Source: Fragilaria crotonensis (lineage: Eukaryota; Bacillariophyta; Fragilariophyceae; Fragilariales; Fragilariaceae). Taken from it: a stretch of 30,367 nt of DNA. The notes under the pieces are model-generated. The model was not told where the DNA came from, did no database searches, and saw only the letters and a list, made by a program, of their open reading frames with translations. Where the stretch lies: assembly GCA_022925895.1 (NCBI GenBank), contig JAKSYS010000721.1, positions 1 through 30,367 of the forward strand. Direction: 5' to 3'. Positions within the stretch are counted from its first letter, which is position 1. Every line of letters begins with the position of its first letter. Below, one piece after another: positions 15,064-20,636 of the stretch. The translations under genes and the position numbers were made by a program.

Positions 15064-15530
15064 AAGAAGTGACACCAAATGTTGAACCGATGAACCCAAC
15101 AGCAGGTTAAGGGGTAATGGTGACAAAGGAATTGTTTGCCATCGGTCCCTTGGACAAAGATGGTGGGTTGCTGTTTGGCACTTTAAGAGATCCGGGAGAA
15201 GGAAGGAAGCAAATCAGAACTTTAGAAAGAATGACATGCAAGATGAGTTAATGATGTTAACTTTACCAGCCTTGCATCTTGATCATCACGATTGATCACT
15301 TGGCACTTTGCACTTGCCAATGAAGTGCCTGTGGAACTGAGTTGTACTCAGCGTACCTGGTACTGGAGTACTAGTTCTCTCCAGACTATGGGTATGCAGA
15401 TAGAATCTTACGATTTCATGCCGTGCCTTGCAGTACATTTCAGCCTACCTACGTTGTGTATTGGATCCTACGGTAACATCCTGCGTTATTATATTTCATA
15501 GTTACTCTCGTAGTAGCTACTAGCTACTAG

Positions 15531-15544
15531 TGTCTAAACGCCCG
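15531..15544 (+). repeat. Left terminal inverted repeat of transposon A
   Basis: TGTCTAAACGCCCG, the exact complement of 17000-17013, immediately preceded by CTAG. Confidence 0.85.
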
Positions 15545-15551
15545 GGGGGGT

Positions 15552-15589
15552 ATCTTTAATTAAAGACAAAACTGTCTTTATTTAAAGAT
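15552..15589. repeat. Subterminal 38-bp palindrome of transposon A
   Basis: Two 17-bp arms (15552-15568 and 15573-15589) around a 4-base spacer, with one mismatch. Each arm is itself a palindrome centred on TTAATTAA or TTATTTAA. It is positioned like the 40-bp palindrome of element B and is a likely transposase-binding site by analogy with other cut-and-paste elements. Confidence 0.75.
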
Positions 15590-16096
15590 GGCTATTTTCG
15601 TACGATTTGCAAGACGGTCGATGTACGTTTCGTACCATCATCAACACAAAATTTGACATCGACAATGGTCGATTGCCGTCATCGGTATCATCACATATCT
15701 AGCAATAGAGTCATAAAGTAACACTTGAAATCTATTCATTACTCACTGTTGCAGGACTCTAAGGTGGTAGGAAAGCTTAGCTTTTGTTTTTGGTGTGGCA
15801 AATCCACAATTTTGTTGTATACTCAAAAGTACCTTCGCACAGAGAGCACGTGTGTGGTGCTAAGCACTTGCAGGATAGGCATTGGCCCTGGTATATACCT
15901 TTGGGAGTGATACCACCATGTACTGTCCATTTGGGGTGAGGTGGCCTGATATTTCATCGCTAGGATTGTTGCAGATTGGTCATAAATCAGCCAATCGTCA
16001 ACCGACACCTTGAACGTTCACCAAATCTGATCTCGAAGAAAGTCAATGAGTTCTTCAGCCAGCCACCGAAGTGTTGACTAAAGTCTTCCTCTCCAC

Positions 16097-16117
16097 CTGC
16101 TGCTGCTGCTGCTGCTG
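16097..16117 (+). repeat. (CTG)7 microsatellite
   Basis: Seven perfect CTG units inside transposon A. On the minus strand they encode a run of Ala within the unrecognised frame at 15987-16196. Confidence 0.9.
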
Positions 16118-16999
16118 ACTCATCTTGCCCCGCCTGCATTGCCTGCTGTATGCAAAATAGCCAGTCATTGGATTTGAGTCGTGACATCATTATCATGTCG
16201 CAACAATCCCATCTTCAATGCTTCCTCCTTGATGCACCGCGGCATTCTTTGAACCAACAAAGTCACAATTGGAGAGAATGAAAGCAGTGGTGGCATGGGT
16301 TTGACCAGCAGGAGTGCTATCTTACTTGAATACCACATCTGGCAGCGCGTCAACTTCTGCTTCCGTCTTGCTCCCAAAGCAACAACTGCATTCATCAACA
16401 AGAGACAATACAAATCACTTTTGCTGCTTTAACCAATGCACCTATAACATCAGATTGGATTTGCATGGTTGAAACAACCTGTTGACAGCAAAGGAAGTGT
16501 GAATTGAGGTGTATATGACATCGTGGCGCACGACGAAAAAACGCACTCAGTTTAATTGTCACAACTCACGAAATAATGAAAATTAGAGAACGCCACCCGT
16601 TACATACCTCCTCTTTAACGCATTTTTAAGACAATTGTAACGCTGTGTTTTGGCTCAATCGAAGTGGAAGGTGATGAACTCAACGCGTTAAGTGAGGCCT
16701 CTAATGACATGATTTTATGTAGCCTGTGTAGGCCACATACTATACATCCGGGGGAAACCGTGTTATTTTTCGACCAAAAAAACTGGGGGAAAATGGGCTC
16801 CAGTTTTGTGTTCAAAAACATAAATCAGGAACTGTCGCTGACTAAGATGCCCCCGTTTGGCCCATGAGGTTTGACTAAATGGAGAATACATTGGCTGTTT
16901 TAATTTTGATTAAAAAGATGAAATGAAGAAGTTGAGTAAGGGCGGAAATCGATCTTTAATTAAAGATTTCACCAGTGGGCCATCTTTAATTAAAGACAG

Positions 17000-17013
17000 C
17001 GGGCGTTTAGACA
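17000..17013 (-). repeat. Right terminal inverted repeat of transposon A
   Basis: CGGGCGTTTAGACA, immediately followed by CTAG (17014-17017). Exact complement of the left end. Confidence 0.85.
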
Positions 17014-17279
17014 CTAGAAGCAACATGAAAAATCTTTGGACACCTTTCATATTGGCCAAAATGGCTGTGCTACACACTGCGTAGAAATCCGGGTATGATT
17101 AGTTTTTTTTCTCGTTCAGTTTTTTCACCAAGAACAACGAAAAAGGTGCCTTTGGAATCGTCTTGTCAAGGTCTACTCATTTCTGCAATAAAAATCGATA
17201 TATATGTGCTATTGTTTATTCGCCTGCTTGCATCACTCCATCTTCCGTGTTGCTCCCATCCTCAATCTACCAGTACTAG

Positions 17280-17293
17280 TGTCTACCCACCTG
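17280..17293 (+). repeat. Left terminal inverted repeat of transposon B
   Basis: TGTCTACCCACCTG, the exact complement of 20566-20579. It shares TGTCTA with the end of transposon A. Confidence 0.87.
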
Positions 17294-17333
17294 ACGGGGT
17301 TAATTAACCCCATTTGGGGTTAATTAACCCCGT
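17294..17333. repeat. Subterminal 40-bp palindrome of transposon B
   Basis: Two 19-bp arms (17294-17312, 17315-17333) around a TT spacer. Each arm contains GGGGTTAATTAACCCC, itself a perfect 16-bp palindrome. The TTAACCCC words recall the TTAA-CCC start of canonical piggyBac ends. Confidence 0.85.
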
Positions 17334-17640
17334 TTTTGCTCATATCGGTAATCGTTCCTGTTATCTTGTACATCGTCCGTTGGGATCCAAACTTGCTGAG
17401 CGTTGTAAGAACTGTATGAAGGAGCATGGTTGAAACGGACAGTAGGCCAGTGTTTGTGGTTATTGAGTTATCAGAGTTGTTCTGCGCGAATTTTTTTCCC
17501 TCCCAATTTTTTTGAAGTCGTGAGAATTCTCGACGATGATATTGATGCGTTCACAGCTCATTGATATCATCATTAACTGAAGTGAGAATGAGCAGCAACG
17601 ATCCTCGTTACCAGGTGGGGGCATTAGTGCATGCAAAGCC

Positions 17641-19437
17641 ATGCATGTAACGGCTCTCATTGAGTGTCACCGACGCTACGGCAGCAACGCAAAAACGAAG
17701 CTTGTCAATGGTACGGTCACAGAGCTTAGAACGGTCCCATCATCTAACCAAAAGCGAACGGTGACTCTCATTACTGCCATCTACAGCCTTGGTGGGCAGT
17801 GCAGGAAGGTTGCTACCTTGAATTCACGGTCAGTCAAGGCTGGTCATGTTGCAGCCATCCCCAACGAAGGTAATGGACCCGGGACCGAACTCGTGACTCA
17901 AGTTTTGATTCCGATTGACATCGCAAATGAAACCTCCACCGCCAATGAAGCAAATGATGTTGATGGAACGCCCTCAAACATTGACATGCACACTGAAAGT
18001 GAGACAATTGTACCTGATGGTTTGCCTGTTGCTCCAGAAGGAGGCCCTCAGGATGTTACACAACACGTGCTGGACACCGATAATAATGATCCTTCTCGGA
18101 CCGCAGCAACTGCTCATGGTATAGAATGGGTCAGGGCATCAGTGAATGCATCACCATTGAATGGCAATTTCCCCAGGCGAATTTGGAGCATCCGTAATTC
18201 CGTTGGTGATGTGTTGGCTCCAGGAGGAAATGGTGTTGCGACACAAAACATTTCACCTCTCGAATTTTTTTTGTTGATGTTTCCTCCCAAGCAGCTGACT
18301 GACATGGTCCGCTGGACAAATATCCAGCTTCAGAAATCATCAATGAAAGAGACAACGCCCAGTGAGGTCCTCAAATTCTTTGGGATCCTAATCCTAACAA
18401 CAACATTTGAGTTCACGACAAGAGCATCCTTGTGGAATACGACGGCATGGTCCAAGTATCGACCGGCACCTCAGTTCGGGTTGACCGGGATGTCAAAGAA
18501 CAGGTTTGAAGACCTGTTTAGTTGCATGAGGTGGAGTTTTCAACCGGCTGTTCCTACTTTTGAAGGGGAAGAAGAATCATCCGAACGATATAGGTGGAAG
18601 CTTGTTGATGATTTCGTTAAAAATTTTAACGAGCATCGAGCCAACTACTTCAATCCATCTGAGATGATCTGTGTGGATGAAAGTATGAGTCGCTGGTACG
18701 GACAGGGAGGCCATTGGATCAACCATGGCCTCCCTCAATATGTTGCAATCGACAGGAAGCCTGAAAATGGCTGTGAGATCCAGAATGCTGCGTGTGGTAT
18801 GAGCGGAGTCATGCTGCGACTCAAACTTGTTAAAGGCGCTGATCTGCCGGGTTCAGAAGAAGAGCAGTTTGGAAACAACGATGATAGCTTGCTTCATGGC
18901 ACAAATGTGCTGAAGCATGTCGTGTCACCTTGGTTTGGATCAAATCGGGTTGTGTGTGCCGATTCGTATTTTGCTTCTGTTGGAGCTGCAAAGGAACTGT
19001 TCCGTAATGGCCTCCGTTTCATTGGAGTGGTGAAGACCGCAACACGTGGTTACCCCAAATCGTTCCTAACAAGCGTCGAGCTTCAGAACCGCGGAGATTT
19101 TGTTGCCCTTCGGTCAAATGCAACAGAAAATAGTCCAGAACTTGGGGCAATGGTGTGGATGGATAGGGAGCGCCGGTATTTCATTTCGACTGCGGGCAGT
19201 TTTGAATGGGGGACTCCGTATCAACGATGCCGCTGGAGGCAAGTTGACCCGGCACCAAATGCAGCTCCGCAACAAGTGATGTTCACGATTCCCCAGCCAA
19301 AGATTGCTGAAATGTATTATACAACTTGTGGAGCAATTGACAGGCATAATAGACTTCGTCAAGATGACCTTCGCATCGAGAAGAAGATCGAAACAAAGGA
19401 TTGGTCTCGGCGTGTGAACTTGTCAATTTTTCGATGA
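17641..19437 (+). CDS. PiggyBac-type transposase (DDE_Tnp_1_7), main frame
   Basis: 598 residues from the first Met of the frame to an early stop. Residues about 10-70 are a small basic beta-rich region, perhaps a Tudor/SH3-like N-terminal module; 90-155 is acidic and low-complexity. The transposase core starts near residue 200 (SPLEFFLLMFPP) and includes SEVLKFFGILILTT and LWNTTAWSKYRPAP. The catalytic triad is visible: D346 in MICVDESMSRW, D441 in VVCADSYFAS, and D567 in TTCGAIDRHN, corresponding in order to the three Asp of piggyBac-family transposases. The enzyme would excise and reinsert the element by hairpin-end chemistry, acting on DNA in the nucleus. The frame breaks at a T5 run (19427-19431); the family C terminus continues in another frame from there. 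Confidence 0.85.
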   Translation: MHVTALIECHRRYGSNAKTKLVNGTVTELRTVPSSNQKRTVTLITAIYSLGGQCRKVATLNSRSVKAGHVAAIPNEGNGPGTELVTQVLIPIDIANETSTANEANDVDGTPSNIDMHTESETIVPDGLPVAPEGGPQDVTQHVLDTDNNDPSRTAATAHGIEWVRASVNASPLNGNFPRRIWSIRNSVGDVLAPGGNGVATQNISPLEFFLLMFPPKQLTDMVRWTNIQLQKSSMKETTPSEVLKFFGILILTTTFEFTTRASLWNTTAWSKYRPAPQFGLTGMSKNRFEDLFSCMRWSFQPAVPTFEGEEESSERYRWKLVDDFVKNFNEHRANYFNPSEMICVDESMSRWYGQGGHWINHGLPQYVAIDRKPENGCEIQNAACGMSGVMLRLKLVKGADLPGSEEEQFGNNDDSLLHGTNVLKHVVSPWFGSNRVVCADSYFASVGAAKELFRNGLRFIGVVKTATRGYPKSFLTSVELQNRGDFVALRSNATENSPELGAMVWMDRERRYFISTAGSFEWGTPYQRCRWRQVDPAPNAAPQQVMFTIPQPKIAEMYYTTCGAIDRHNRLRQDDLRIEKKIETKDWSRRVNLSIFR

Positions 19438-20028
19438 TTGTTGTGGACACCTGGTTGGTGTTTAATGCGATGAGGAACACACCAACTGTTCAACTAAATC
19501 AAAAAGAGTTCTATTCTGTCTTGTCAGAAGAGTTGATCGACAATTCCTATGGTAGCAGAGGCTGCCCCTCAAGTCAACCCCGATCTTCACCAAATGCGGC
19601 GTCTTTTGTCCAGGATGCATGTATGAGAGCATTGGAAAGTGGAGGACCACGTGCCGGTGTTCTGACACACTTGACACCTGTCAAGCGACTCAAAAATAGC
19701 AAGGGTGAGAGGACAAGTTTTAGATATCAAGGAAGGTGTAAGGAGTGCCAGAAGAAGACCACTTGGCAATGCTCAGACTGCGGCGATGGCGGAAAAACTG
19801 TCTACCTTTGCGCCACAAAAAAATGGAAAACGATGCTTCTTGGACCATCTGGCTCGCAATCTGTCAGTGCATGCTTCTCCTATCGATGCAATTCAGTACT
19901 GTGGTATGTGTTACTGCATCTACATGCAACAGTATACACATGCATGTACTGTGCTACTGGCCACGTGCATGGATACGTGCTTCTATCCATACAGCATTCT
20001 CTCAAGTTTACCTGGTACCCAATACTAG
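19401..20028 (+). pseudogene. Out-of-frame C-terminal part of the piggyBac transposase
   Basis: Beyond the T5 run the family sequence resumes in the -1 frame (VVDTWLVFNAMR, then a spacer and the Cys-rich RCKECQKKTTWQCSDCG and VYLC), then shifts again at the A7 run (19817-19823) into NGKRCFLDHL. These Cys and His pairs make the zinc-binding C-terminal domain that piggyBac-family transposases use for end recognition. Two single-base homopolymer differences (one T too few, one A too many) explain both breaks. The last part, after about 19870, is GTAC-rich and probably not coding. This copy is therefore probably inactive as read, unless the runs are sequence errors. Confidence 0.7.
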
Positions 20029-20520
20029 ATAGTCTAATTGGAGCTCTTTCTTGTGCTCCTCACAACTTCTAATATAGACCCTTTTATAGCCTCAACTGCA
20101 TTCTTGCCGGTCTCGACGATCGTAAGGGTGAAGAGGCAATAGGGCTATTGACGACAACGCTCACACTACTAACAAGACGAACGGTAACATTGTACGACAG
20201 CTCATCATACTTCATTGAGTGTCCCTGATCGTTTCATCGTGATTCACCCGTTCCAATTGGCGGTATTGATCTATCAACCGCCGCCGCATTCGTCGACGCT
20301 TGTGAGCCACACGTTTCATCCCTCCTACCCCTGAGCGTGAGCGCTCGTAATTAGGGAGGGTCTCACACAATCATATGCACCTTAGTGAGTTATGAGCATA
20401 ATTTGAGTAGTTGAACAGTGCATTCATTAGTGTCAACATGTTCATATTGACCGTCATGGTCGACACCATTTTGGAGTAGATGGCAGTATTTTTTTCTACT
20501 CACGATCGCAAAAACATGAT

Positions 20521-20560
20521 GGGGTTAATTAAGGCACACGACGGGGTTAATTAAGGCACA
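20521..20560 (+). repeat. Direct subterminal repeat of transposon B, right side
   Basis: Two copies of GGGGTTAATTAAGGCACA (20521-20538 and 20543-20560). They mirror the left-end palindrome by holding TTAATTAA next to GGGG, but the second half differs. Confidence 0.8.
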
Positions 20561-20565
20561 TGGAC

Positions 20566-20579
20566 CAGGTGGGTAGACA
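20566..20579 (-). repeat. Right terminal inverted repeat of transposon B
   Basis: CAGGTGGGTAGACA, followed by CTAG (20580-20583). Exact complement of the left end. Confidence 0.87.
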
Positions 20580-20636
20580 CTAGTACTTGTAGACTACTGG
20601 TTTACACTGTGACCTAAGCATGATGAGGACGAAGAA

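Follow-up and report, generated by a model that had tools for sequence, protein, structure and literature searches.

We have analysed a 30,367-nucleotide stretch of the Fragilaria crotonensis genome (contig JAKSYS010000721.1, positions 1 to 30,367 of the forward strand; hereafter the window), which carries a decayed cut-and-paste DNA transposon related to piggyBac. Known piggyBac elements duplicate TTAA and excise precisely. The piggyBac-like transposase lineage to which the window element belongs very probably inserts at CTAG and duplicates CTAG. This was supported by a 4-base-pair (bp) CTAG duplication at dozens of insertions, by the one CTAG that most unoccupied relatives carry and by the presence of a piggyBac-type transposase.

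The terminal inverted repeat TGTCTACCCACCTG was present at both ends of the window element with 0 mismatches, enclosing the transposase gene and with CTAG outside each copy (Table 1). A search of the window allowing up to 3 mismatches returned these 2 matches only and shuffled sequences averaged 2.2; hence, the evidential weight comes from both matches being exact and inverted around the gene. The outer flanks joined through a single CTAG read AGTACTAGTACT. The first-pass annotation had described the perfect repeats, the CTAG on either side and the palindrome restored by removing the element with one CTAG, and all of these were confirmed. The CTAG density of the window was 1.88 per kb.

The window transposase gave PF13843 (DDE_Tnp_1_7) as its sole Pfam match (1.5e-43, 149.9 bits, cut-off 22.4), and among PDB entries it matched piggyBat (1.6e-11) and piggyBac (7.9e-07). 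In an alignment with its relatives, D364, D459 and D585 (numbered on the reference row, C363; copies and loci are referred to by such handles) were invariant in all 13 rows, including that of the window copy, and aligned with piggyBac D268, D346 and D447, which we take to be the catalytic residues, partly on the basis of PMC7351741. The 598-residue frame stops at 19437, where relatives extend further, and the window row ends ahead of the C-terminal Cys-rich domain. In the relatives this putative zinc-binding domain has 6 Cys and 2 His that are nearly invariant. The transposase thus meets the description given from the window alone, a piggyBac-family enzyme with three Asp and a Cys-rich tail, with the tail split over two other frames, and it has the fold expected of piggyBac. 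For structure prediction, a 24-sequence run replaced a first 13-sequence run (pLDDT, predicted local distance difference test, 55.5). Transposases with identity to the reference row as low as 46% have CTAG in common.

We have then examined the flanks of related copies in the genome (62.1 Mb, 881 contigs), where the transposase search gave 79 matching segments, several of which may share one copy. Without regard to the flank, exact matches to TGTCTANNNNCCYR were sought in the 58 loci that had been retrieved through the repeat word or the protein. Of the 79 distinct ends obtained, 76 had CTAG directly before them, 2 GTAG, 1 CAAG and none TTAA, a recurrence that decisively confirms the arrangement seen in the window. 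Since the other searches for ends and pairs used patterns that favoured CTAG or required TA, the unconditioned scan provides the unbiased figure. Allowing one mismatch added 6 CTAG ends and 23 others that resembled chance matches.

Both ends could be read in 61 copies (39 from an earlier set, 20 newer ones, C34 and C153), which correspond to 60 events because C363 and C339 occupy the same insertion site in a duplicated region. CTAG was found on both sides of 56 of them and TTAG on both sides of one (C38), four had unlike flanks and none had TTAA. One set of 20 regions was taken around part of 65 places, chosen by repeat word and pairing and not by flank. The pattern TANTGTCTANNNNCCYR, which demands TA preceding the repeat, had 206 genomic occurrences, of which the first 100 were covered (the reversed pattern occurred 13 times). 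The ends of C34 lay about 10 kb apart, as did those of C253, and C34 looks like a single element interrupted by other DNA. Beyond CTAG the flanks were unlike, with identical outer 4-mers at 0 of 59 sites and a mild preference for TA adjoining the insertion site. The repeat itself varied by subfamily (TGTCTA followed by CCCACC, AAGGCC, GCCTCC, TGCGCC, AACGCC, etc.), with CTAG remaining constant. Single ends besides these pairs included ATAG (C26), GTAG (C58) and CTAC (C50), and a search for the partner ends of C26, C50, C52 and C58 found none. On locus L046 (3250-4083, C408), the CTAG flanking the end of an element of one subfamily directly adjoins a short element from another, which is thus nested at the target duplication.

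The same comparison bears on where the element ends. Both ends of the window element have TTAATTAA at a distance of no more than about 30 bp, as would be expected if the element ended at the inner TTAACCCC words with TTAA duplicated and the outer repeats were host or satellite sequence, a doubt that had been raised together with the original proposal. Copies at unrelated places nevertheless have the TGTCTA repeat in common and diverge outside CTAG, and clean empty relatives are devoid of TGTCTA repeats. No copy with homology ending at the inner TTAA was met among copies sought by TGTCTA or by protein, the only loci read outside the pattern search being 20 found by protein. Inner ends have, accordingly, next to no probability, and the doubt was set aside. 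The suggestion that TTAA is retained in subterminal palindromes held in part, as TTAATTAA is so placed in many of the copies inspected but nothing marks it as a relic of a TTAA target. These TTAATTAA palindromes may be transposase binding sites, which is a guess, and a similar role is possible for the subterminal GGGGTTAATTAACCCC palindromes.

We have also searched the genome for unoccupied sites. The flanks of 49 insertions (the 39 earlier pairs and 10 of the 20 newer ones; C34, C153 and the other 10 newer pairs lay outside this set) were joined with one target copy and used as queries. Scoring covered 40 candidates per query, and 24 of the 39 earlier insertions were searched twice. C408n was excluded from the count, as its match was its own right flank. 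At least 20 of the 49 insertions had an element-free relative, and one or two sites were read base by base for each. Exactly one CTAG with both flanks matching was found for 11 insertions (C827, C217, C608b, C764, C408a, C386, C123, C232, C316, C111 and C133), which are the CTAG-only empty sites that the first-pass annotation had named as a check. Together with the 56 of 61 copies flanked by CTAG on both sides, they sustained its proposal of a lineage with altered target specificity. Overall, the unoccupied relatives, which may never have been occupied, mostly held one CTAG, and two had 2-3 extra bases.

These sites are also decisive against the idea that CTAG belongs to the terminal inverted repeat (CTAGTGTCTA...) and that no duplication exists. 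CTAG is nearly invariant and, being palindromic, fits equally well at both ends, as that model would have it. It predicts, however, no unoccupied relative with exactly one CTAG and continuous flanks, and 11 were found; TTAG on both sides of C38 contradicts it as well. CTAG as part of the repeat was thus rejected on account of the empty sites and is extremely unlikely.

Several observations weigh against a CTAG duplication. Four pairs had unlike flanks, namely C592 (CTAG/CTAC), C691 (GTAG/CTAG), C131 (CTAG/CGAG) and C153 (AGAG/CTAC), the last with CTAG 2 and 3 bases beyond its repeats. Some of the 61 pairs were found through the CTAG-favouring or TA-requiring patterns, and all ends read except one come from a single genome. 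Among the unoccupied relatives, that of C284 has one CTAG, next to which the length differs by 3 bp, and those of C482, C403 and C334 have one CTAG with one flank matching over about 2-20 bases only. The relative of C592 has CTAG, and the occupied copy would need a secondary change of 6 bp in its right flank. Those of C73 and C466 read CTAGAG and CTACTAG (2-3 extra bases), that of C62 reads GTCG and that of C207 is gapped at the site. For the window copy, no empty site was found among the 40 candidates scored, which gave its own flanks only. The extra bases at the C73 and C466 relatives resemble a partial second target copy, as in an excision footprint, and slippage of (CTA)n is equally possible.

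Sites with CTAG plus 2-3 extra bases (CTAGAG, CTACTAG, CTAGTAG) were noted at L060, L067, L154 (1882-3201) and L033 (865-880); two are unoccupied and two occupied, and they may reflect footprint or slippage. Separately, the C764 insertion (C764:163535) lies within a high-copy repeat present at at least 38 other places. Its copies are often separated by about 7.5 kb, as the two long terminal repeats of a retrotransposon would be.

Some of the deviating flanks would be compatible with a duplication of TA only, as in Tc1/mariner-like transposition or PiggyMac-like cutting, with an element that starts with G (GTGTCTA...) and prefers C-TA-G. Because CTAG is palindromic, a copy at CTAG looks identical under this model and under a 4-bp duplication, and the outer-base differences of C691 and C592, like the single ends of C26 (ATAG), C58 (GTAG) and C153 (GTAG), are permitted by it. 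For C38, however, the TA-only model predicts CTAG on the right, and in this one copy both flanks read TTAG on the same strand. The single end C50 (CTAC) has its inner base changed, the CTAG in the relative of C592 points to a later 6-bp change, and C691 and C153 can be read as CTAG with added bases. The 2-bp TA duplication that is a trait of Tc1/mariner was not encountered, given C38 (one copy) and PF13843 as the only Pfam match. We therefore regard a TA-only duplication as very unlikely.

The 4-bp CTAG duplication could also be the work of a different, unseen transposase, with the piggyBac-like gene as a passenger. In this respect, 15 of the 39 earlier copies span 748-1483 bp, below the size needed for the gene, and must therefore be moved in trans. 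One transposase family was nonetheless found inside CTAG-flanked copies of every repeat subtype that had a copy of more than 2.7 kb among those read (CCCA, AAGG, GCCA, GCCT, TGCG, AACG and others after TGTCTA). No systematic search for other genes was made, and a passenger gene is very unlikely.

A second lineage with a PF13843 transposase (lineage B) was found in the same genome. Its copies start with CGGATATTGGACCACCC and end, on the reverse strand, with CGGTTTAGAAATCACCC or variants; a simple inverted-repeat scan missed these ends, which were found by aligning copies (loci L075-L082 and L143-L151). Of 10 copies read, eight were flanked, as judged by eye, by variable 4-bp repeats, namely ATAC (C162), ATAG (C24), AAAA (C2), GTAG (C201), AAAT (C706), ATTT (C230), TTGT (C235) and TAAT (C131), and two had unlike flanks (C416 and C259). 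C54 and C91, whose ends are undefined, and C109, with a left end only, lie outside this count. Lineage B thus resembles the CTAG lineage in its PF13843 transposase and 4-bp duplication, whereas its repeats start with CGG and its duplications vary. Since they vary, CTAG is not imposed by the way in which flanks were read, and these transposases do not all have a fixed target word. Among the copies read, which cover part of the PF13843 matches, none was flanked by TTAA. Taking the CTAG lineage together with the variable, mostly A/T-rich targets of lineage B and the lack of TTAA among the copies read, it is probable that in piggyBac-like transposons it is the 4-bp stagger that is fixed, whereas the target word can evolve freely.

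Relatives were also found outside this genome. L089 (IMGVR_UViG_3300049043_000356, filed as viral in IMG/VR) carries a 671-residue frame for a CTAG-type transposase with 59% identity over the best segment. Its left end reads CTAG followed by TGTCTATCCTCCCG and then the same GGGGTTAATTAACCCC palindrome, and its right end is lost; the contig may be host DNA or DNA of a large virus. L090 (JAHDDY010000183.1, filed under a Rhodobacteraceae metagenome-assembled genome) has a transposase 41% identical to the CTAG lineage over the best segment. Terminal repeats and CTAG were looked for in L090 and none were recognised; this contig is perhaps eukaryotic DNA in a bacterial bin.

Table 1. Positions of the CTAG-flanked element, its parts and a shorter neighbouring element in the window
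Feature	Position	Strand	Evidence
Left CTAG target-site duplication	17276..17279	.	Sequence, copy flanks, unconditioned end scan
Left terminal inverted repeat TGTCTACCCACCTG	17280..17293	+	Pattern search
Two subterminal palindromes GGGGTTAATTAACCCC	17296..17331	+	Sequence; self-inverse match; similar layout in other copies
piggyBac-like transposase frame, 598 residues, DDD triad	17641..19437	+	Frames, Pfam, PDB matches, alignment
Transposase continuation with Cys-rich tail, different frame, decayed	19401..20072	+	Frames versus aligned relatives
Third frame, holding end of Cys-rich tail	19705..20028		Frames versus aligned relatives
Later insert of about 507 bp	about 19862..20368	.	Lacking in the C421 copy (98.6% identical)
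Two right subterminal GGGGTTAATTAAGGCACA repeats	20521..20560	+	Sequence
Right terminal inverted repeat	20566..20579	-	Pattern search
Right CTAG target-site duplication	20580..20583	.	Sequence, copy flanks, unconditioned end scan
Shorter CTAG-flanked element, same lineage, repeats TGTCTAAACGCCCG	15527..17017	-	Flank reading, tblastn

The later insert is bordered by a CAATC direct repeat, as judged by eye, and is itself a repeat that is found, whole or partial, also on C157, C397, C665 and C671. The shorter element has 1483 bp between its duplications, its two ends show 78-80% identity with the C363 copy, and its only tblastn match to the C363 protein is a remnant of the transposase tail. The first-pass annotation had described neither this element nor the later insert, the early stop of the 598-residue frame or the split of the tail over two other frames.

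By analogy with piggyBac (Chen et al. 2020, PMC7351741), the chemistry of the CTAG lineage would be that of piggyBac itself. Nicking of each 3' end by the transposase would free a 3'-OH, which would attack the opposite strand at a distance of 4 nucleotides and so close the flanking CTAG into a hairpin loop. Complementary 5'-CTAG overhangs would remain on the donor and reseal to one CTAG, and the opened ends would be joined over a 4-bp stagger at a new CTAG. CTAG differs from TTAA in the outer two bases only (C..G for T..A), the central TA being kept and the stagger still 4 bp long and palindromic; with this TA and its self-complementarity, it would have what such hairpin and overhang chemistry needs.

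The target of the lineage sets it apart from the characterised enzymes, as piggyBac of Trichoplusia ni (PDB 6x67, 6x68; PMC7351741) targets TTAA and piggyBat of Myotis lucifugus (PDB 9c0f; PMC11707139) duplicates TTAA. In piggyBac, TTAA is read unpaired, and a hydrogen bond between T0 and A3, thought irreplaceable, has been proposed to make TTAA obligatory (PMC7351741); the outer target bases of the present lineage are C and G. N440 of piggyBac, 7 residues before the catalytic D447, reads one target base (PMC7351741). At this position, located by an ungapped count from the third Asp, the reference row has Y578, invariant in 13 of 13 rows, and piggyBat has Asn, so that the Tyr replacing N440 is a candidate specificity determinant. 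PiggyMac of Paramecium, a piggyBac relative, is directed to TA and not TTAA (PMC8086355), and altered specificity thus has a precedent in a domesticated enzyme; PiggyMac is a nuclease that removes eliminated sequences, whereas the present lineage consists of mobile elements that duplicate CTAG. Non-TTAA flanks of bee piggyBacs were interpreted as possible mutations (PMC10140906), and algal piggyBac families have been catalogued with duplications left unnamed in the part available (PMC5963040). In searches of an open-access full-text library, judged by titles and the starts of abstracts, we have found no description of a piggyBac with CTAG duplications.

The lineage is piggyBac by its enzyme and falls outside piggyBac if TTAA is the criterion, which means that the target word of piggyBac-type elements can evolve. 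If the stagger is indeed fixed and the target word free, this would be a natural exception to the T0-A3 bond making TTAA obligatory, and the Tyr at the N440 position and its neighbours would be indicated as specificity determinants. Since this natural lineage retains both the enzyme and the 4-bp stagger and has CTAG as its target, target choice becomes testable through residue comparison or swap, with lineage B and its unfixed 4-bp targets as a third state for comparison in the same genome. Genome engineering uses piggyBac on account of its insertion at TTAA and its ability to leave no scar behind, and from the CTAG lineage a seamless transposon for another target word could be obtained.

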